The notes under the pieces: generated by a model | The model's input: the letters and a program-made list of their open reading frames with translations, nothing else | Databases searched by the model: none | Told to the model about the DNA's origin: nothing | Source: Anaerolineae bacterium | GTDB lineage: Bacteria; Chloroflexota; Anaerolineae; DRVO01 | Assembly: GCA_013178015.1 (NCBI GenBank) | Contig: JABLXR010000002.1 | Location: 1-64,000 of the forward strand | Length of the DNA: 64,000 nt | Direction of reading: 5' to 3' | Program-made: the position numbers and the translations under genes | Shown here: in pieces, positions 35,443 through 57,903 of the stretch | How positions within the stretch are numbered: position 1 is the first letter of the stretch | Layout of the letters: each line of letters opens with the position of its first letter

Positions 35443-35526
35443 GTGGATAGTGGAGATCGCCCTACCCGGGCGAAGCTGGGACGACGCAACCCACTACTCA
35501 CTCACTACTCACCACTAGCCACTACC
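35443..35526. repeat. inverted heptamer array inside the ECF operon
   Basis: The left arm is GTGGATA GTGGAGA (35443-35456). The right arm is five 7-base words, CACTACT CACTCAC TACTCAC CACTAGC CACTACC (35492-35526). The right arm contains the TAG stop codon of the S-subunit gene, read on the minus strand. Confidence 0.75.
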
Positions 35527-36055
35527 TTCGCTCCTCCCATGGCCGGACCAGCCCGAGAGTCTCCACCGGAGGCCAGGCTTGCCGTAGGGCTGCCGAAAGC
35601 GGGATGGCCACCAGCCCACCGGCCAGGGCTTGCACGGCGTTGCCTGGAATCTCCACCAGAGCTGCTCCTACCCCATACAGGACCACCTCGGCCAGGAAGT
35701 AGCCCCCGACCATGATGAGCGAGCCGACGGCCCACGCCAGAGCCTGGCGGGCAGTGGTGGCGCGGTAACCGAGGTACCCGGCTACGCCCCCCTGCACCCC
35801 GTGGAACACGAGGGTGAGTGGCGCCCAGTGGGCGTAGCACCCGAGCACGTCGGCCATGGCCGTACCCAAGCCTCCTGCCAGTAAGCCCATGACTGGCCCG
35901 AAGGTGAAGGCGGCGAAGTAGACGCCCACGTCGCCCAAGTGGATGTAACCGCGGGTGGGGGCGATGGGCACGCGCACCAGCAGCGTCAGCACCGTCGTCA
36001 CCCCCATGAGGGCGGCTAGCACCACCACCCGAACGGCCGTCCAGCGGCGGAACAT
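35522..36055 (-). CDS. ECF transporter substrate-binding S component
   Basis: A 177-residue membrane protein with about six helices of the ECF S-component type (PF07155-like). GYIHLGDVGVYFAAFTFGPV followed by MGLLAGGLGTAMADVLG and AHWAPLTLVFHGVQG is characteristic and probably lines the vitamin-binding pocket. The substrate cannot be told; HmpT/YpdP-like members carry thiamin precursors, pyridoxine or queuosine precursors. No riboswitch was recognised. Its stop codon is inside a heptamer array. It lies 51 bp after a Gfo/Idh/MocA gene, so the operon may begin further upstream. Confidence 0.82.
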   Translation of the reverse strand: MFRRWTAVRVVVLAALMGVTTVLTLLVRVPIAPTRGYIHLGDVGVYFAAFTFGPVMGLLAGGLGTAMADVLGCYAHWAPLTLVFHGVQGGVAGYLGYRATTARQALAWAVGSLIMVGGYFLAEVVLYGVGAALVEIPGNAVQALAGGLVAIPLSAALRQAWPPVETLGLVRPWEERR

Positions 36056-37134: not shown

Positions 37135-37287
37135 AGGTTGCAGGTTACCGGCTACAGGTTACAGGGGATGGAGGATACCGGTCAAAGGTTGCGGTTGCGT
37201 CTGCAGCCAGGCATTGGCGGCGTACACACCAACTGCTCATCTCCTCCAACCTATCCCCTATAACCTAGTCCCTGCAACCTATTCCCT
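37135..37287. repeat. inverted heptamer array (AGGTTAC vocabulary)
   Basis: The left arm consists of 7-base words AGGTTGC AGGTTAC, CGGCTAC AGGTTAC and AGGGGAT GGAGGAT (37135-37176). The right arm is CCAACCT ATCCCCT, ATAACCT AGTCCCT and GCAACCT ATTCCCT (37246-37287). The same word set recurs at 40187-40433. The right arm touches the last codons of the ClpP-class protease gene. Confidence 0.85.
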
Positions 37288-38124
37288 GTGCTGGGGCCGC
37301 TCGCCGTTCTCCCGGCGCCGGGAGGGAGAGGGTATGAACTCCACCGACGGCCGCTGCTGCCGAGCCTGAGGGAAAAGGTTCATGAGAGCGTACACCTCTC
37401 GGGGAACGTCCGTGGAGACGGGGAGGCCGAGAGCCCGCAGCTCTGACACACTGATGGGGTAGTCGTGGGTCCAAGTGCCTGAGGAGAGCAGATCTGCCAG
37501 GCGCTCGGCCTGCTCCTCGGGCTGGTTCTGCATCACCAGCTGCTTCACAGTGTGCCGAACCTGCCCGACAGCCTTCGCGGCAGTATCGGCCAGGATTAGG
37601 GTCTCATCGCTGATGTCGGCAATGGGCTTCTGCCGCACCACCTTGAGCACGGACACTGCCGGATACCCACCTACCTGCGGATCTACCGGGCCCAGGACCG
37701 CGTTCTCGTCCATGACGATCTCGTCGGCCGCCAGGGCGATGAGGGTCCCACCGGACATGGCGTAGTGCGGGACGATCACCGTGACCTTGGCCTTGTGCCG
37801 GCACAGGGCACTGGCGATCTGCTCTGCAGCCAAGACCAGGCCCCCCGGCGTGTGCAGGATGAGGTCAATGCGAGTGTCCGGTTCGGTGAGCCGGATGGCG
37901 CGGAGGACGGCCTCGGAATCCTCTATGTCAATGTAGCGCGCCAGGGGCAACCCCAGGAGGCTGATGGTCTCCTGGCGGTGAACCAGGGCAATGACGCGGC
38001 TGCCTCGGCTGTCTTGGAGACGGCGGATGAGCCGGGCGCGGCTAGCATCGAGCATCCAGCGCCGGACTATGGGCTGCAGGGAGGTGAATAGGAGGAATAT
38101 GAGCAGTATGGTGGACAGATCCAT
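37279..38124 (-). CDS. membrane-bound ClpP-class serine protease (SDH_sah family)
   Basis: A 281-residue protein with one N-terminal membrane anchor (LSTILLIFLLFTSLQPIV) and a ClpP/crotonase-fold protease domain of the SDH_sah type (PF01972). LILHTPGGLVLAAEQIASAL forms the oxyanion region. MSGGTLIALAADEIVMDE supplies the putative nucleophile serine in SGG, and ENAVLGPVDPQVG follows. Such proteins cleave or trim membrane proteins. The C-terminus (SPSRRRENGERPQHRE) is unconserved and runs into the heptamer array. The rhomboid protease next door suggests a small membrane-proteolysis group. Confidence 0.82.
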   Translation of the reverse strand: MDLSTILLIFLLFTSLQPIVRRWMLDASRARLIRRLQDSRGSRVIALVHRQETISLLGLPLARYIDIEDSEAVLRAIRLTEPDTRIDLILHTPGGLVLAAEQIASALCRHKAKVTVIVPHYAMSGGTLIALAADEIVMDENAVLGPVDPQVGGYPAVSVLKVVRQKPIADISDETLILADTAAKAVGQVRHTVKQLVMQNQPEEQAERLADLLSSGTWTHDYPISVSELRALGLPVSTDVPREVYALMNLFPQARQQRPSVEFIPSPSRRRENGERPQHRE

Positions 38125-39403: not shown

Positions 39404-40189
39404 ATGAAAGCCAGTCAGGGCGAGAAGCAGTTCCGCCGTCTGGCCATCGGGGCAGGTATCACGGTGTGGGTGGGCCTTACCCTGTTGGCCGTGGGAGTGG
39501 TCTTCAGCGTGGGCGGATCAGCGGCGCGGGCCAACGCGCTTCGGGCCCAAGGACCTGGCGGCTCTACCATGCGGAGCCTGCCGGCGACGACTGCGGTTGC
39601 TCTCTCGCCCACCCGGGCGACTTTGACCCCGACCGCCACCGCTACCGCGACGGCGCCGATGCTGAGCCTAGAGGAGAGCCAGCCTACTGCGACCGCGACA
39701 GCCACTCCTGAGCCCACTGCGACGTTCACGCCGGAGCCGGCTCCGCCCACGCGCCTGGTGATCCCAGCCATCAACGTGGATACGCCGGTGCAGGAAGTGG
39801 GCTGGCACGAGGAGGTAGTTGAAGGGACTCTGCTGGCCGTCTGGGATGTAGCTGACTACGCCGCCAGCTGGCACTACACCTCCGCCAAGCCAGGCGAGCC
39901 GGACAACATGGTCATGACCGGACACCACAACATCGCGGGGGAGGTGTTCCGGGAGTTGGTGACGCTCCAGGTAGGGGACCTGGTCTACGTCTATTCCGGG
40001 GACAGGGAGTTCACCTACCAGGTGAGCGAGGTGCTGATTCTGCCAGAGAAGGGGATGCCGCTGAGTGTCCGCCGAGAGAACGGTCGCTGGATAGCCCCCA
40101 CCGGGCAGGAGATGCTCACCCTGGTCACCTGCTGGCCGTACAACAATAACACCCATAGGGTGATCGTCAGGGCGCTGCCCGTTGGGTAG
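39404..40189 (+). CDS. sortase
   Basis: A 261-residue sortase with an N-terminal TM anchor (IGAGITVWVGLTLLAVGVVF) and a Thr/Pro/Ala-rich stalk (60-115). The catalytic beta-barrel begins at RLVIPAINVDTPVQ. The active-site His is in MTGHHN (174-175), the cysteine is Cys243 in LTLVTCWPYNNNTHR, and the arginine is Arg252. It would join a surface protein to the cell envelope or to another protein; no clear LPxTG protein was found in the window. Its TAG stop is the first three bases of a heptamer array. Confidence 0.9.
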   Translation: MKASQGEKQFRRLAIGAGITVWVGLTLLAVGVVFSVGGSAARANALRAQGPGGSTMRSLPATTAVALSPTRATLTPTATATATAPMLSLEESQPTATATATPEPTATFTPEPAPPTRLVIPAINVDTPVQEVGWHEEVVEGTLLAVWDVADYAASWHYTSAKPGEPDNMVMTGHHNIAGEVFRELVTLQVGDLVYVYSGDREFTYQVSEVLILPEKGMPLSVRRENGRWIAPTGQEMLTLVTCWPYNNNTHRVIVRALPVG

Positions 40190-40433
40190 GTTGTAGGTTA
40201 TAGGTTACAGGTTACAGGTTACAGGTTACAGGTTATAGGGAATAGGTTGTGGAGATTGGGGAACGACCGCGGGGCGAGGAGATGATCCATGTCGGTCCGC
40301 GGGGCGACGAGGGGATCGTCGGTCTACGGGGCGTGCCACGGACCAGAGACGGACTGCCCCCAGCCTGCTCCCTATCCCCTATCCCCTATTCCCTGTAACC
40401 TATCCCCTGTAACCTATCCCCTATTCCCTACCA
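40187..40433. repeat. large inverted heptamer array between convergent genes
   Basis: The left arm holds nine consecutive 7-base words (40187-40249): TAGGTTG TAGGTTA, TAGGTTA, CAGGTTA four times, TAGGGAA, TAGGTTG. The right arm holds nine 7-base words (40371-40433): CCTATCC twice, CCTATTC, CCTGTAA, CCTATCC, CCTGTAA, CCTATCC, CCTATTC, CCTACCA. Each is the reverse-complement style of the left words. The sortase stop (40187-40189) and the GH39-like stop (40414-40416) both lie inside the arms. Confidence 0.9.
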
Positions 40434-42612
40434 AAGGCAGGATGGTGCTGATCAGGCGCTCGTTCAGGCTTACGTTATCCACGTAGGCCAGGGTGGGCCG
40501 CTCCCCCGAAGACTGGTACAAGTTGAATACCACCCGGATGTTGTGACCGCGCCAAGGGGAGAGGTCGAAACTGGCGTGGGTCCACTTGCAGCTCTGGTAG
40601 GTAGTGCGAGGCTGGATGAGGTAGGTGGCCGTGGGCCCGCCCGCCGCGTCCAGGTCTACCACTAGGAGTTCGAACCAGTCCTCTCCTGGTTTGGTTTCCT
40701 CGCTCTCCAGTCGGTACCAGAAGCGAAGAGTAGGCTCCACCATCCCCGCGTCTACCAGCAGTTCCTGATAGGCAGTGGAGTTGCCGCCGCCCTCCAGGGC
40801 CGGATCCTCGTCTGGCACGAAGTCACTTCCCAGCAGCAGGCACTTGCCCTCACTCAGGCAGGAGGTGCCCAAGGCGGGAGGGGTGCTGCCCATGTCGAGC
40901 CAGCCGTCCAGGCCGGCGGCGAACCGCCCGTTGTAGATCAACTCGCGACTGAGCAGCCGGCCGGCCGACTCGATGAGGATGTACGGCGCGCCCCCGATCA
41001 TGTACTCGCTTGACCCGGGCAGGTTCTGATTGGTAGCCCGAGGAAGCCGGATGGAGTAGAAGCCACCCTGCGGGGTAACGGTGGTGACGTTCCCGTGCAA
41101 GTCCACCAGACTGGCAGCAGTGCCGGAGGCGGGAACGAGGGCGTCCACGTCGTGGCCCTGGGTGGCCCAGAGAACGGTGACGCGGTGCCCGGTCTGGGGC
41201 CGGTAGAAGGCGATCTCCTCGCGATCGTTGGCCGGCGTCCGGCGCCACAGAGGCTGTAGGCCTCGAAACTGGGCCACCGCCGTACGGTAGGCCTTAAGGG
41301 AGAGGCGGGGCGCGGCATCTGAAGGGTAGCAGGCGGCGGAGGCCTCGTTGCGGTAGAGGCCGTAGGCGTCGCGGGCGGTGGGGCCGTTGCCGCAGTCATC
41401 GTGGAGCTGGAAGTGGAACACCACCTGGGCGCCGGAGTACAGGGCGTAGGCGTGGGCCTGGATGACGTAGGCGGCCTGCTCCTCGGTGGTAGCCCGGTAT
41501 GGGCTCTTGGGGTCTTCGGTGGGGCCGGGATAGTCGTTCCACACCGGTACCCCCGACTCGGTCACCCAGATGGGCTTGTTGAGGCCGTGGGCGGCGAGTA
41601 GGGAGCGCGCCCGTTGGGTGTGGTCGAGGGCGTCGGCGCTGCGGCTGTAGAAGTGCACCGCCAGGGCGTCGAAGTAGTGATTGCGCGCCGCCCGCTCCGC
41701 TTGGTTCGGGTCAGCGGACATGACCTGCAGCAGGCGGGGGAACCAGTCGGGATCGAAGTAGGTGGCCAACCCGCCTAGGATCACGGTGCAGCCCGGGTCG
41801 GCGTGCTTGGCCGCCAGGTAGGCGACCTTGAGTAACCGGTAGTACTGCTCGACGGAGCCGCTCCAGAAGAAGGTCCAGTCGGGCTCGTTCCAGATCTCCC
41901 AGTGGGAGACGCCGGCTCCAGCCGGCCAGCCTCGTGCCTGGGCCAGTACGCCTCCGGGCTTGTAGCGGCGTACGGTCTCGTACACGTAGCGGGCCCAAGG
42001 GTTGTCCGGGTTGATGGCTTTGCCCGGTCCGGGAACGTCGGTGCCGTCGCTGAACACGGGGCGGTCCAGGTTGGCGGGAGCGCTGTTGGCGCTGGCGATC
42101 CTGACATCAGGCAGAGGGCGAGTGCGGCCTGCAGGCCAGATGGGCACCTGCCGCTGTGCCTGCAGCATATCAGCGGAGGCCATGTTGCTGGCGTAGACGG
42201 GAGAGGTGCCTAGGAGGATGGCCAATGTCTTGAGCCCTCGGGCAACGTCATCAGCGACTGCCCGATCCTGGGCCGAGAAGTCGTACTGCCCGGGTGACTT
42301 CTCGATGTTCTGCCAGTAGAAGGGGAACCGATCCCACGAAGCGCCGGAGGCTACGGCCCGATCCAGTCGGGCCGAGCTGGCCGGGTCCTCGGCTGAGGTG
42401 ACGAAGCACATGCCGAACGCCGGGTTGGGGGTGACGGCGGCCTGGGCGGCCGGGTCCTGAGCAGCAAGCCGCTCTGGGACTTGCGTGAGCAGCAGCCCCA
42501 GAGCGGCGAGGATGAGGAAAACGGGTAGAGCACGGGCGCGATGTGGGTGCATACGCGTCTTACCCCGTTTGCTGATAGTAGAAGCAAGTTCGGTGCCAGC
42601 AGGTTCGCGCAT
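40414..42612 (-). CDS. secreted GH39-like glycoside hydrolase
   Basis: A 732-residue exported protein. A signal or anchor helix (ALPVFLILAALGLLLTQVPE) precedes a clan GH-A (beta/alpha)8 domain at about 65-420. The acid/base is in HWEIWNEPDW and the nucleophile Glu in KPIWVTESGVPVW, most like GH39/GH5-type enzymes. A C-terminal jelly-roll carbohydrate-binding-like domain follows at about 560-720 (LIYNGRFAAGLDGWLDMGST; VVFNLYQSSGERPTLAYVDN). It ends ILPLVGNRG, where the last residues are coded by the heptamer array. Its ATG overlaps the upstream stop by one base (TGATG), so translation is coupled to the surface protein. Confidence 0.78.
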   Translation of the reverse strand: MREPAGTELASTISKRGKTRMHPHRARALPVFLILAALGLLLTQVPERLAAQDPAAQAAVTPNPAFGMCFVTSAEDPASSARLDRAVASGASWDRFPFYWQNIEKSPGQYDFSAQDRAVADDVARGLKTLAILLGTSPVYASNMASADMLQAQRQVPIWPAGRTRPLPDVRIASANSAPANLDRPVFSDGTDVPGPGKAINPDNPWARYVYETVRRYKPGGVLAQARGWPAGAGVSHWEIWNEPDWTFFWSGSVEQYYRLLKVAYLAAKHADPGCTVILGGLATYFDPDWFPRLLQVMSADPNQAERAARNHYFDALAVHFYSRSADALDHTQRARSLLAAHGLNKPIWVTESGVPVWNDYPGPTEDPKSPYRATTEEQAAYVIQAHAYALYSGAQVVFHFQLHDDCGNGPTARDAYGLYRNEASAACYPSDAAPRLSLKAYRTAVAQFRGLQPLWRRTPANDREEIAFYRPQTGHRVTVLWATQGHDVDALVPASGTAASLVDLHGNVTTVTPQGGFYSIRLPRATNQNLPGSSEYMIGGAPYILIESAGRLLSRELIYNGRFAAGLDGWLDMGSTPPALGTSCLSEGKCLLLGSDFVPDEDPALEGGGNSTAYQELLVDAGMVEPTLRFWYRLESEETKPGEDWFELLVVDLDAAGGPTATYLIQPRTTYQSCKWTHASFDLSPWRGHNIRVVFNLYQSSGERPTLAYVDNVSLNERLISTILPLVGNRG

Positions 42613-48118: not shown

Positions 48119-48122
48119 GCAG

Positions 48123-48330: not shown

Positions 48331-49347
48331 GTGGCTCGCACTTCCATCAAAGACATCGCCCGGGCTGCGGGGGTGTCTCACTCTACCGTGTCTCGGGCCC
48401 TGAGGGACGATCCGCGCATCAGCCCGGAGGTGGTGCAGCGCATCCGTTCTCTGGCCAGGGACATGAGCTACAGCCCCAGCGTCGTGGCGCGCAGCCTGGT
48501 CACCCGGCGGACCCGCACCATCGGTGTGGTCGTCACCACCATCTCTGACCCATTCGTCTCCGCCGTTGTGGATGGCATTGAGGAGGAGGCGACGGCTAAC
48601 GATCATGCGGTGATCCTGGTCATGTCTCGTTCCGACCCCGAGCATGAGCTGGAGGCGGTGCGACTGCTGAGCGAGAGGAGGGTGGACGGGATCATCGTTT
48701 CGGCCTCGCGGGTGGGGAACTACGAGGAGCGACTGGTGCGGCTGCAGGTGCCCATAGTGCTGCTCAACAACCAGTCGGAGAGTAGCTACATCTACTCCAT
48801 AAACGTGGACGATGTCCGGGGTGCTCACATGGCGACAGACCACCTCCTCGAGCTCGGCCATCGCCACATCGCGTACATCGGCTGTCCCGATCGGCCCCGC
48901 TCACACCGACGACGGGAGCAGGGGTTCCGGATGGCCCTGGGGGAGCGGGGCATGGTGCCGGGCCTGTCCCAGGTGGTGGCAGACGAAGGCATAGGCGATG
49001 ACGCCGAGCGAGGAAAGCTAGGGATGCGCCGGCTGCTGGGCGTCGAGGACCGACCGACGGCGGTCTTCTGCTACAACGACGTCACCGCTATCGGTGCTCT
49101 CAACGAAACCCGGCGGTGGGGCCTGGCGGTGCCGGGCGATGTTTCGCTGGTAGGTTTCGACGACGTAAGGGAGGCGTCGCTGGTGAGCCCCGCGCTCACC
49201 ACCGTGAACCAGCCGCGGGAGAGCATGGGACGACAGGCGGTCGAAATGCTGCTGCGGTTGCTGGCGGGGGAGAGTGTAGGCGACCGCGTCATTCTACCCC
49301 GGCTGGTCATTCGGCAGTCGTCAGGCCCGCCAAAGAGCAGTGGATAG
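48331..49347 (+). CDS. LacI-family transcriptional regulator
   Basis: A 338-residue regulator. The helix-turn-helix is at the N-terminus (SIKDIARAAGVSHSTVSRAL), followed by the hinge (YSPSVVARSLVTRRTRTIGV) and a periplasmic-binding-like sensor domain (TAVFCYNDVTAIGALNETRR; LVGFDDVREASLVSPALTTV). The GTG start at 48331 fits the family N-terminus (MARTSIKDIA). It precedes the probable inositol-catabolic genes and has a palindromic operator directly upstream, so it most likely controls itself and those genes in response to inositol or a pathway intermediate (inference). Its TAG stop lies inside a heptamer array. Confidence 0.9.
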   Translation: MARTSIKDIARAAGVSHSTVSRALRDDPRISPEVVQRIRSLARDMSYSPSVVARSLVTRRTRTIGVVVTTISDPFVSAVVDGIEEEATANDHAVILVMSRSDPEHELEAVRLLSERRVDGIIVSASRVGNYEERLVRLQVPIVLLNNQSESSYIYSINVDDVRGAHMATDHLLELGHRHIAYIGCPDRPRSHRRREQGFRMALGERGMVPGLSQVVADEGIGDDAERGKLGMRRLLGVEDRPTAVFCYNDVTAIGALNETRRWGLAVPGDVSLVGFDDVREASLVSPALTTVNQPRESMGRQAVEMLLRLLAGESVGDRVILPRLVIRQSSGPPKSSG

Positions 49348-49481: not shown

Positions 49482-50729
49482 ATGAGGGCATTGGTGCTGC
49501 GCGCAGACTGGGATCCGCGGCCAGAATACGAGCTGAGCCAGTGGGAGAAGCGCACCGGCAAGGCGGTGACGGGCAGCAGCGTGTGGCGGAACCCTCGCCT
49601 GCAGGTGGAGGAAGTACCTACACCGGTCCTGGAGCCGGAAGAGGTGCTGGTTCGGGTTAGCGCCTGCGGCGTATGCGGTTCGGACGTTCACTTCTACGAA
49701 ACCGACGCCGACGGCTACATGCTCTACCCAGGGTTGACCCGGTTCCCCAGCGTGATTGGGCACGAGTTCTCGGGAGTGGTGGCCGACAGGGGCGCCGCCG
49801 TGAGCGACCTGGAGGTGGGAGACCTAGTGACCGCCGAGGAGATGATCTGGTGCGGGCATTGCGTTCCCTGCCGCAACGGCTTCCCTAATCAGTGCCGCAA
49901 CTTGGAGGAGATTGGCTTCACCATTGACGGGGCGGCGGCAGAGTACATCGCCATCGGGGCCAAGTACTGCTGGAAGCTCAGCTCCGTGGCTGAGCGCCTG
50001 GGCGACCAAGGGCGCGCCCTCGAGTTGGGTGCCATGACCGAGCCCGCGTCAGTGGCCTACAACGCCATCTTCGAGGTGGCCGGTGGCTTCCGGCCGGGCC
50101 AGTACGTGGCCGTGTTCGGGGCAGGGCCCATCGGCCTGGCCTCCATCGCGCTGGCGCGGGCTGCCGGGGCCGGGCGGATCGTGGCCTTCGAGGTCTCTCC
50201 GGTCAGGCGCGAGCTGGCTCTGCGGGTGGGGGCCGATCTCGCCTATGATCCCGCGCAGGTGCGCCCTTCCCAGGTGCTGATGGAGCACTCCGGAGGCGAG
50301 GGCTTCGACTTCATGGTCGAGGCGGCGGGGGCGCCGCAACACACCGTCCCCGAGATGGAGCAGGCCCTGGCCATCGGAGCCAAGGTGGTGCAGATAGGTC
50401 GGGCTGCGACGCGAGTGCCCATGTACCTGGAGCAGCTGCAGGTGCGCAAGGCCAAGGTGTTCGGGGCGCAGGGACATTCGGGCTACGGCAACTTCCCCAA
50501 CGTCATCCGGTTGATGGCCTCGGGCCGACTGGACCTGTCCCCCATCATCACCAGCCGCTTCCGCCTGGACGAGGGCGTGGCCGCCATCCAGCAGGCCACG
50601 AGGCGCGAGGACGGCAAGATCCTGATCACCGTGGGGGAGAGGAGGGAAGGAGTAGAGGAGACAGGAGTAGAGGAGGGAAGGGGGTGCCAAGCGATGAGGG
50701 GTAGTGGGCAGGGAGGAGGAGAGGAGTGA
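49482..50729 (+). CDS. iolM: zinc-type alcohol dehydrogenase, probable scyllo-inosose 3-dehydrogenase
   Basis: A 415-residue medium-chain dehydrogenase. The catalytic zinc ligands are in ACGVCGSDVHFYET and GHEFSG, and a structural-zinc loop is CGHCVPCRNGFPNQC. The NAD fold has VAVFGAGPIGLASIALARAA. The segment VTGSSVWRNPRLQVEEVP and FTIDGAAAEYIAI closely recall, from memory, Thermotoga maritima TM0412 (IolM), which oxidises scyllo-inosose to a diketo-inositol. ATG 49482 has AGGAGG 6 bases upstream. The last 33 or so residues (from GERREGVEETGVEEGRG onward) are translated repeat sequence, not family sequence. The neighbours complete the same pathway. Confidence 0.78.
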   Translation: MRALVLRADWDPRPEYELSQWEKRTGKAVTGSSVWRNPRLQVEEVPTPVLEPEEVLVRVSACGVCGSDVHFYETDADGYMLYPGLTRFPSVIGHEFSGVVADRGAAVSDLEVGDLVTAEEMIWCGHCVPCRNGFPNQCRNLEEIGFTIDGAAAEYIAIGAKYCWKLSSVAERLGDQGRALELGAMTEPASVAYNAIFEVAGGFRPGQYVAVFGAGPIGLASIALARAAGAGRIVAFEVSPVRRELALRVGADLAYDPAQVRPSQVLMEHSGGEGFDFMVEAAGAPQHTVPEMEQALAIGAKVVQIGRAATRVPMYLEQLQVRKAKVFGAQGHSGYGNFPNVIRLMASGRLDLSPIITSRFRLDEGVAAIQQATRREDGKILITVGERREGVEETGVEEGRGCQAMRGSGQGGGEE

Positions 50730-52008: not shown

Positions 52009-53063
52009 AGCGGATTCCTGCCCTGGGCCCTCCCTGCTTGGGAGACGGGGAGACGCGGAGAGGGGGAGAGGGGGAGAGGGGGAGAAGGGGAGACGCGGAG
52101 ATGGGGGGACACGGGGACAGGGAGACAGGGAGAGGGGGCGATTCACTGTCTCCCCCTCACCGCCTCTCCCCTTCTCCCTGTCTCCCCTTCTCCGCGTCTC
52201 CCCGTCTCCCCCTCGCCATCGTCCTCTCCACTCACCCGGCCCAGTTCCAGGCGGTGGCGTTCAGGGGGGACCTGGAGGCGAACCTGAGAAGCATCGCCGG
52301 GTTGGGGTACGACGGGGTGGAGTTGGCCATCCGGGACCCTGGCCTGGTGGATGTCGAGGCTCTCAGCCGCACGCTCGATCAACTAGGCCTGGCGGTACCC
52401 GCCGTCGGCACCGGCCAGGCCTGGGCGGAGGAAGGCCTCTCCTTCACCGATCCCGACGCCTCCGTGCGCCGGGCGGCGGTGGACCGCATACGGGCCCACT
52501 TGGCGCCGTCAGCCCGCTGGGGCGCGGTCGTCATCGTGGGCCTCATCCGAGGCACCGTGTTCCCTGGGGTGGAGCCCGAGCAGGCCTGGGCCTGGCTGGT
52601 GGAGGCACTCAGGGAGTGCTGCCGTTCGGCGGCCGACGTTGGGGTCAGGCTGGCCCTGGAGCCCATCAACCGTTACGAGACGGTGCTGGTCAACACGGTG
52701 GCCCAAGGGCTGGACCTGGTGACCCAGGTGGGGGCTCCCAACCTGGGGCTGCTCCTTGACACCTTTCACATGAACATCGAAGAGCCCAGCATCGAGCGCA
52801 GTATTCGCGCGGCAGGGGAGCGCATCTTTCACTTCCATGTGGCGGACTCGAACCGCTGGTACCCGGGCGCCGGCCACCTGAACTTCCCCGCCATCCTAGC
52901 GGCGCTGGCCGAGACCGGTTACGGCGGTTATGTCTCCGGCGAGTTCCTTCCCCTCCCCGATCCCGCCACCGCCGCCGCGAGCGCTATCCGCTTCCTGAGA
53001 GGGGAGACGGGGAGACGGGGAGACGCGGAGACGGGGAGAGGGGGAGAGGGGGTGACTGCATGA
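52005..53063 (+). CDS. iolO: sugar isomerase/epimerase TIM barrel, probable 5-keto-L-gluconate epimerase, with repeat-derived ends
   Basis: A xylose-isomerase-like TIM barrel (PF01261). The conserved body begins at IVLSTHPAQFQAVAFRGDLE (codon 52218) and includes YDGVELAIRDPG, VRLALEPINRYETVLVNTVA, LGLLLDTFHMNIEE and HFHVADSNRWYPGAGHLNF. The Glu and His/Asp metal ligands are present. It resembles Thermotoga IolO (TM0416), which converts 5-keto-L-gluconate to D-tagaturonate. The normal Met start is missing: an octamer array occupies its place. GTG 52005, overlapping the iolN stop, or ATG 52101 would translate through the array, adding a Gly/Glu/Arg then Ser/Pro-rich leader. The last 20 residues also come from another array. 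The start is uncertain. Confidence 0.72.
   Translation: MKRIPALGPPCLGDGETRRGGEGERGRRGDAEMGGHGDRETGRGGDSLSPPHRLSPSPCLPFSASPRLPLAIVLSTHPAQFQAVAFRGDLEANLRSIAGLGYDGVELAIRDPGLVDVEALSRTLDQLGLAVPAVGTGQAWAEEGLSFTDPDASVRRAAVDRIRAHLAPSARWGAVVIVGLIRGTVFPGVEPEQAWAWLVEALRECCRSAADVGVRLALEPINRYETVLVNTVAQGLDLVTQVGAPNLGLLLDTFHMNIEEPSIERSIRAAGERIFHFHVADSNRWYPGAGHLNFPAILAALAETGYGGYVSGEFLPLPDPATAAASAIRFLRGETGRRGDAETGRGGEGVTA
52041..52217. repeat. inverted octamer array at the iolO-like 5' end
   Basis: The left arm has twelve 8-base words without a gap (52041-52136), mainly GGAGACGG, GGAGACGC, GGAGAGGG, GGAGATGG and GGAGACAG. The right arm has nine (52146-52217), CTGTCTCC, CCCTCACC, GCCTCTCC, CCTTCTCC and similar, ending CCCTCGCC. 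The loop is only about nine bases. The frame of the downstream gene is open through the whole array. Confidence 0.9.
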
Positions 53064-54238: not shown

Positions 54239-54400
54239 CCACGGAGACACGGAGAGGGGGAGACGCGGAGACGGGGTGACAGGGAGAGGGGGAGACAGGG
54301 AGAGGACGAGACAGAGAGGTGGTTTGTCGCGTCCTGATGTCACAGTGTCTCACCATCTCCGCGTCTCCCCCTCTCCCCCTCTCCGCGTCTCCCCCTCTCC
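54239..54400. repeat. inverted octamer array upstream of dnaX
   Basis: The outer end CCACGGAGACACGGAG (54239-54254) is followed by GGAGA-type octamers to 54314. The loop contains the same 18-base core TCGCGTCCTGATGTCACA (54327-54344) as the array at 48.2 kb. The right arm has GTGTCTCA CCATCTCC, GCGTCTCC CCCTCTCC, CCCTCTCC GCGTCTCC and CCCTCTCC (54345-54400). It lies between the divergent iolG-like and dnaX genes, directly before the dnaX promoter. Confidence 0.9.
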
Positions 54401-54411
54401 CCTCCGGGCCT

Positions 54412-57080: not shown

Positions 57081-57785
57081 ATGTTCGAGGCCGTTCTCTT
57101 CGATCTAGACGACACTCTATTGCGCACGGAGACGGACGAGTTCATCGCCCGGTACTTCGCTGCTCTGGGAGAGTATTTCCAGCCCCTCGGCGGGGTGGAG
57201 CCGGCTCAGTTTCGGCAGTGGGTGCTTCAGGCTACGAGAGCCATCCTGCAGCGCGAGCACCCTGAGCTCACCAATGCCGAGGCCTTCTCGGAGGAGTTCG
57301 GCCGGCTGAGCGGCCTGGATCCAAAGAGCCTGTGGCCTCACTTCATGCGCTTCTACGAAGAGATCTATCCCTCTCTAGGGGAGGGGCTGGAGGCGATGCC
57401 CGGGGCCCGAGAGGCGGTGCTGGAGGCTCAGGCCGGCGGCCGCAAGGTGGTCGTGGCCACTAACCCGCTGTTTCCCCTCAGTGCGGTCCGCGCTCGCCTG
57501 AAGTGGGCTGGGCTGGCGGATGTCAGGTTCGACCTGATCACGGCGATCGAGAACATGCACTGGGCCAAACCTCATCCAGCCTACTTCCGCGAGATCGCCG
57601 ACACCCTCGATGTTCCGGCGGAGCGGTGCCTGGTGGTCGGCAACGACCCGGAGCTGGACATCATCCCGGCTCAGCAAGCGGGCATGTGGACCTACCTGGT
57701 CTGCCAGGGCGAGCCCCCCGGTGGCGCCGAGCCCCACGCGTTCGGGGACCTGGCTGGGCTGGTGTGCATGTTGCGTGATACGTGA
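57081..57785 (+). CDS. HAD-family hydrolase
   Basis: A 234-residue haloacid dehalogenase-like phosphatase. Motif I is VLFDLDDTLLRTE (nucleophile Asp and general acid two residues on), motif II is VVATNPLFPLSA, motif III's lysine is in HWAKPHPAYFREIA, and motif IV is CLVVGNDPELDIIPAQQAGM. A helical cap occupies residues about 20-95. The substrate is unknown, probably a small phosphorylated metabolite. It lies 40 bp after recR. The last residues and stop (RDT, then TGA) are coded by the first words of a heptamer array. Confidence 0.88.
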   Translation: MFEAVLFDLDDTLLRTETDEFIARYFAALGEYFQPLGGVEPAQFRQWVLQATRAILQREHPELTNAEAFSEEFGRLSGLDPKSLWPHFMRFYEEIYPSLGEGLEAMPGAREAVLEAQAGGRKVVVATNPLFPLSAVRARLKWAGLADVRFDLITAIENMHWAKPHPAYFREIADTLDVPAERCLVVGNDPELDIIPAQQAGMWTYLVCQGEPPGGAEPHAFGDLAGLVCMLRDT

Positions 57786-57890
57786 CACGTGACGCGGGAT
57801 GCGTTGGCCTTCTTCCCAGGCACGTATCACTGGTCACGTGTCACGTATCACTCATCACTCGTCACTCGTCACGCATCACGTCTCACTCGT
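57773..57890. repeat. inverted heptamer array (CGTGATA/CACGTAT vocabulary)
   Basis: The left arm has GCGTGAT ACGTGAC ACGTGAC GCGGGAT (57773-57800). The right arm is ten perfect-period 7-base words (57821-57890): CACGTAT CACTGGT, CACGTGT CACGTAT, CACTCAT CACTCGT, CACTCGT CACGCAT, CACGTCT CACTCGT. The stop codon of the HAD gene is in the left arm and the AGGAGG of the next gene starts right after the right arm. Confidence 0.9.
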
Positions 57891-57903
57891 CAAGGAGGCT
57901 ATC

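Follow-up and report, generated by a model that had tools for sequence, protein, structure and literature searches.

Inverted arrays of 7- and 8-base repeats in an Anaerolineae genome abut gene ends that mostly lie where array-less relatives also end

Among the short repeats of bacterial genomes, the cyanobacterial STRR are dispersed tandem heptanucleotides, three of which have been reported in Calothrix, and the enterobacterial REP/PU elements are palindromes of 20-40 bp with conserved tags, which are extragenic and lie between convergent genes or between the genes of an operon. In Xanthomonas and Nostoc, degenerate and mainly intergenic G-rich heptamers (GGGNATC or GGGGA(C/T)T) have been described, with convergent inverted pairs in 70/186 in Xcc (Rehm et al. 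2015, PMC4692102). Their G-rich strand coincides with the coding strand up to 50 bp from stop codons, overlap with the stop included, and with the non-coding strand directly upstream of starts (PMC4692102). The TAACTGA heptamers of Beggiatoaceae, Cyanobacteria and Bacteroidetes are also intergenic (MacGregor 2015, PMC4679880); their forward repeats bring a stop to each of the three frames and extend into ORF ends by up to 18 nt. They lie mainly just upstream of starts, as direct repeats in all cases but one, which is inverted (PMC4679880). Intergenic inverted heptamers that hug stop codons are thus already known from the Xanthomonas/Nostoc and TAACTGA repeats.

In the present study, a stretch of 64,000 nt from the draft genome (4.57 Mb, 97 contigs) of an uncultured Anaerolineae bacterium, referred to as the window, was analysed together with 20 further stretches of the same genome, 454 kb in all. 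Several of these stretches were picked for matches to one word family (family A), for which the sample is therefore non-random, and genes were called with a simple caller of our own making. Between the convergent genes for a sortase (PF04203; 39404-40189, plus strand) and a GH39-like glycosidase (40414-42612, minus strand), positions 40187-40430 hold two arms in inverted orientation, each made of nine degenerate heptamers (YAGG(TT/GG/GA)N). The left arm (40187-40249, plus strand; family A, YAGGKKA/YAGGGAA) reads TAGGTTG, TAGGTTA, TAGGTTA, four times CAGGTTA, TAGGGAA and TAGGTTG. It is followed by a spacer without array words (40250-40367, no strand) and by the right arm of family A words (40368-40430), which reads on the minus strand TAGGGAA, TAGGGGA, TAGGTTA, CAGGGGA, TAGGTTA, CAGGGAA, TAGGGGA, TAGGGGA and TAGGGAG. 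As stated in a preliminary description of this DNA, the sortase TAG (40187-40189) is the opening three bases of the first left-arm word, the GH39-like TAG (minus strand, 40416-40414) lies in a right-arm word, and the last residues of that gene (VGNRG) are repeat-coded. This TAG opens the third word of the right arm, and the final five codons (GTA GGG AAT AGG GGA) fall in words one and two.

The same description placed the stops of three further genes of the window inside array words. The ECF-S gene (35522-36055, minus strand) does end in this way, its TAG (35522-35524) leading a family C array (TAGTGGN; 35491-35524, minus strand) and opening five related heptamers (TAGTGGC, TAGTGGT, GAGTAGT, GAGTGAG and TAGTGGG). 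The TGA of the HAD-family gene (57783-57785) likewise lies in GTGATAC/GTGACAC words, within the left arm (57772-57796, plus strand) of a family B pair (GTGAYRC) whose right arm of heptamers spans 57821-57892 on the minus strand. For the LacI-type regulator (48331-49347, plus strand) the claim was not confirmed: its stop (49345-49347) lies in CAGTGGATAGCGGC, a short array look-alike in which neither Tandem Repeats Finder nor an autocorrelation scan calls an array. A gene absent from that list, encoding a ClpP-like SDH protease (37279-38124, minus strand), has its stop (37281-37279) in an array word, provided by the right arm (37243-37288, minus strand) of a second family A pair, the left arm of which (37135-37165, plus strand) lies in front of the start of a MocA-type gene.

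Across the 454 kb, a self-similarity scan found 43 period-7 and 17 period-8 arrays, against one of each in local composition-matched shuffles. With a looser scan, 43 of 49 period-7 arrays were mostly non-coding, as were those of period 8; periods 6, 9 and 12 also exceeded the shuffles, yet these were mostly coding. The words fall into families A (YAGG(TT/GG/GA)N), B (GTGAYRC) and C (TAGTGGN), which are heptamers, and D (GGGAGACG-like) and E (AGGAGTAG-like), which are octamers, and the arms are usually paired as inverted repeats. The arrays abut stop codons tightly: 25 of the 34 array edges that face gene 3' ends lie from -20 to +10 nt of the stop, comparable closeness to a start was seen for only one of 30 start-facing edges, none of which comes nearer than +10 nt, and the difference is strong (Mann-Whitney p=4e-9). 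In addition, the stop was closer than the start for 20 of 22 elements between tandem genes (p=1e-4), and the word strand was directed away from the nearest gene in 50 of 55 arrays (p=2e-10). Divergent spacers held 4 elements, compared with 2.9 expected by spacer count and 6.5 by length. Array-abutting genes make up about 10% of the genes called here, and TAG is commoner at their stops (22/35) than at others (138/330; p=0.02).

These arrays resemble the Xanthomonas/Nostoc repeats in their tandem, mainly non-coding 7-nt units, their inverted pairs, their strand polarity and their closeness to stops. They differ in the words themselves, which here are YAGGKKA, GTGAYRC, TAGTGGN and 8-mers, in the presence of several word families and 8-base units in one genome, in heptamers that carry TAG or TGA, and in that divergent spacers are not markedly avoided. 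Furthermore, tracts of three G are present in TAGGGGA and TAGGGAA words but absent from TAGGTTA and GTGATAC words, and judged from these letters the latter would fall short of the four G-tracts (at least three G each) of the G4-forming Xanthomonas/Nostoc repeats. Since the family B words have no G-tract, G-quadruplexes were rejected as the common cause; polarity and stop-hugging, previously considered in connection with G-quadruplex repeats, occur here with words without G-tracts as well and call for another one, such as strand-asymmetric slippage, R-loops, repair or an RNA function. The three-frame stops of the TAACTGA repeats are shared by the TAGG-, GTGA- and TAGTGG-type words, but the words are others and so is the placement, most 3'-facing edges being at stops here and 5'-facing edges keeping their distance from starts. 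The arrays are dispersed tandem heptanucleotides as in the STRR, for which neither inverted pairing nor a register with stop codons is known; like the REP/PU elements they are extragenic, inverted and just 3' of genes, but they are built of tandem 7- and 8-mers. What is new here is that one genome holds several 7- and 8-mer families, that words bearing a stop stand in register with ancestral stops, and that the polarity is the same where the words have no G-tracts.

It had also been suggested that arrays were inserted or grew right at gene ends and so trimmed or replaced native C-termini, for which an alignment with homologues was named beforehand as the test. We made this comparison with the nearest relative, of the same genus (G001), and with a member of the same family (G002). 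No period-7 or period-8 arrays were found in 69 kb of the former or 50 kb of the latter, and the family A pattern has no match in the whole genome of either, against 124 matches in this genome. The sortase ends at one residue throughout, with RALPVG here, RALPVA in G001, where no array follows, and YPAG in G002. The GH39 tail is ILPLVGNRG here and ILPLVGVGS in G001, equal in length, although its final codons are array words here. Relative to G001, the ECF-S and LacI proteins are each longer by one residue and the HAD protein is about two residues shorter. Outside the window, the ends VSWG, HRVYD and TGRFG are the same with and without arrays, and LREMRL equals LREMKM and LREMPL in length, even though the last codons and the stop of the LREMRL gene are array-coded. 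The change in C-terminal length is zero for the sortase, GH39, L079:12044, L079:17961, L079:3567, L080:11153 and L084:18639, and one added residue for L084:18513.

Taken together, the C-terminal length was within one residue for 67% of 15 array-abutting genes and 80% of 46 controls (p=0.20, not significant), in a set so small that a modest shift could be hidden. These 15 genes are those with orthologues reaching the C-terminus, mostly at 57-80% identity, and include that for LacI, which has no detectable array. The marked changes were mostly extensions (+31 in an alcohol-dehydrogenase-like gene, +18 in the gene at 52254-53063 and +10 at L085:16834); two genes were shorter than the best match (-5 and -14), with other relatives that end near the same point. 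Because most genes end where array-less relatives end, the repeats adopt existing gene ends and do not shorten the proteins. The idea of growth at gene ends was therefore correct in that arrays reach or overlap these ends, and failed in its trimming or wholesale replacement of C-termini, which the array-less orthologues of the sortase, of GH39 and of several genes outside the window led us to reject.

Taken as a rival reading, in which arrays enter gene ends blindly, destroy the native stop, trim or replace the C-terminus and provide a new stop, this idea could draw on the repeat-coded VGNRG of GH39 and IGYRE of L084:17359-18513, and on the change from TGA or TAA to the TAG of a word in several genes. 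But blind entry would scatter the stops over the first three words, and in about 20 of the 34 3' ends, counted by eye, no array word precedes the stop. As most genes in addition share the C-terminal residue or length of their array-less orthologues, this reading is largely refuted by these homologues and we regard it as very unlikely.

The stop content of the words helps to understand how proteins are spared. It had been stated that the words carry TAG or TGA in the relevant frames. This was borne out for heptamers of the TAGG, GTGA and TAGTGG types, which stop each of the three frames within 21 nt, and it does not apply to CAGG words and GGGAGACG octamers, which give a stop in no frame; TAG or TGA occurs within words of families A, B, C and E. 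Because the word length of 7 is not divisible by 3 and the words of such heptamer arrays hold TAG or TGA, an array entering a gene end brings a stop in every frame, and is thus able to act as a translation stop, as proposed. Overwriting of the native stop and of a few terminal codons would in this way be tolerated, with the stop kept at its ancestral position. The extensions agree with the stop content of the words beside them. In the alcohol-dehydrogenase-like gene (stop 50729), the extension of 31 residues has family E octamers (AGGAGTAG/AGGAGACA; 50640-50675, plus strand) read through within it, and the 18 added residues of the gene at 52254-53063 are coded by family D octamers (52997-53063, plus strand), whereas L085:16834 adjoins CAGG-type heptamers without TAG. 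The tail of the alcohol-dehydrogenase-like protein (50640-50729), partly octamer-coded, is rich in Gly, Glu and Arg and is missing from the 78%-identical orthologue of G001. Mimicry of the Shine-Dalgarno sequence by the words was also considered and rejected, as permuted words bind the anti-SD about equally and composition suffices.

Stop codons might also be where arrays nucleate, if a native TAG or TGA and the next bases serve as microhomology or slippage seed, so that the first word is the stop. At about 12 of 16 family A 3' ends, counted by eye, the stop is in register with the words; the sortase stop stands at its ancestral position, where G001 has TAG ATAGG, and the presence of TAG or TGA in four word families would suit such a seed. 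The register is nevertheless automatic when an array overlaps a stop, identical word families occur scattered across the genome, where they face starts and divergent promoters as well, and stop-less octamer arrays abut stop codons too. We consider nucleation at stops unlikely.

The explanation that we favour, and hold to be probably correct, is that these are lineage-specific intergenic arrays of inverted 7- and 8-base words that have grown or been copied into existing spacers up to constrained sequence. The arrays would spread within a pre-existing spacer by slippage or conversion, and their spread would be halted on 3' sides at the native stop codon and on 5' sides about 10 nt before the start codon, where the ribosome-binding site lies; selection presumably sets these boundaries. 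Where an array has overwritten the native stop together with a few codons before it, a word would supply the stop at the ancestral position, and octamers without a stop in the frame that they enter would leave read-through extensions. The convergent spacer of L084, which is nearly all array with little native sequence left, fits replacement better than simple growth in a spacer. An error of assembly or gene calling was also weighed, given the draft state of the genome and the position of some arrays close to contig ends; this is extremely improbable, since conservation of the flanking proteins extends across the junctions and independent genomes from other families of the class have similar inverted heptamer arrays at gene boundaries, made of other words. 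A far-reaching version is given little credence here. In it, a DNA process active in many Anaerolineae, with lineage-specific words, would lay down 7- and 8-base repeats from gene boundaries outward at a fixed polarity, seeded on the stop codon and in register with it, and a substantial share of genes would have their 3' ends recoded with the stop left in place.

It follows that repeat arrays can hold gene 3' ends without damage to the protein. Words are self-terminating if they bear a stop and their length is coprime to three, and arrays with no in-frame stop leave C-terminal tails; repeat-coded tails are therefore to be expected by gene callers and in C-terminal comparisons in such genomes.

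The preliminary description further proposed the array as a transcription terminator, and the paired arrays could indeed be bidirectional terminators or 3' mRNA stem-loops that replace ordinary terminator hairpins. For the RNA of 40180-40440 the folding energy is -126 kcal/mol, and for shuffles it is -98 (z -4.9). A relative has, at three convergent sites, a plain hairpin where arrays stand here, among them the sortase-GH39 spacer of G001 with GAGGGGGGACCC..GGGTCCCCCCTC. Such a role is therefore reasonable. In Xac, transcript starts and stops are also commoner at G4-forming than at control repeats (PMC4692102). On the other hand, 40187-40430 holds no intrinsic terminator (G+C-rich hairpin followed by a U-tract) and no U-tract, and a scan for terminators and the sigma-70 consensus gave no match there. 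Divergent spacers hold elements too, and so do the gaps of operon-like tandem genes, where the next start is 10-30 nt off and the spacers of relatives measure 15-50 nt. Apart from belonging to one family, the words of the two arms show no mirrored order (Stouffer z -1.1), so selection for base pairing between arms was rejected, as was a general 3' hairpin rule, because array-less convergent spacers have no excess of hairpins; a hairpin is moreover the trivial outcome of one word family in inverted orientation. For these reasons a 3' stem-loop that acts as a bidirectional transcript end or insulator is held as possible, though on balance doubtful. That arrays fill unconstrained spacer, with the stop codon and the ribosome-binding region marking the limit set by selection, is better supported than termination. 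Identity with a known RNA family was rejected, as Rfam covariance models gave no match at the gathering threshold in 35000-58500.

The elements are not restricted to gene ends, since an octamer pair at 54240-54402 of the window lies in a divergent spacer with a gene start on both sides. At L079:17821-17961, a heptamer element parts two tandem genes that are 15 nt apart in G002; it is flanked by CCACAGAGCCACGGAGACACAGAG, similar to the starts of octamer elements at 48120 and 53125 of the window. The sequence AGGGATGTGCATCYAGCGA is common to the spacers of two unrelated family A elements (L079:17898-17920 and L094:2078-2118), a hint that whole elements are perhaps copied between loci. In another genome of the class (G203; L273, L291 and L297), TAGGTGA and GTTGGGT heptamers form long, nearly perfect arrays.
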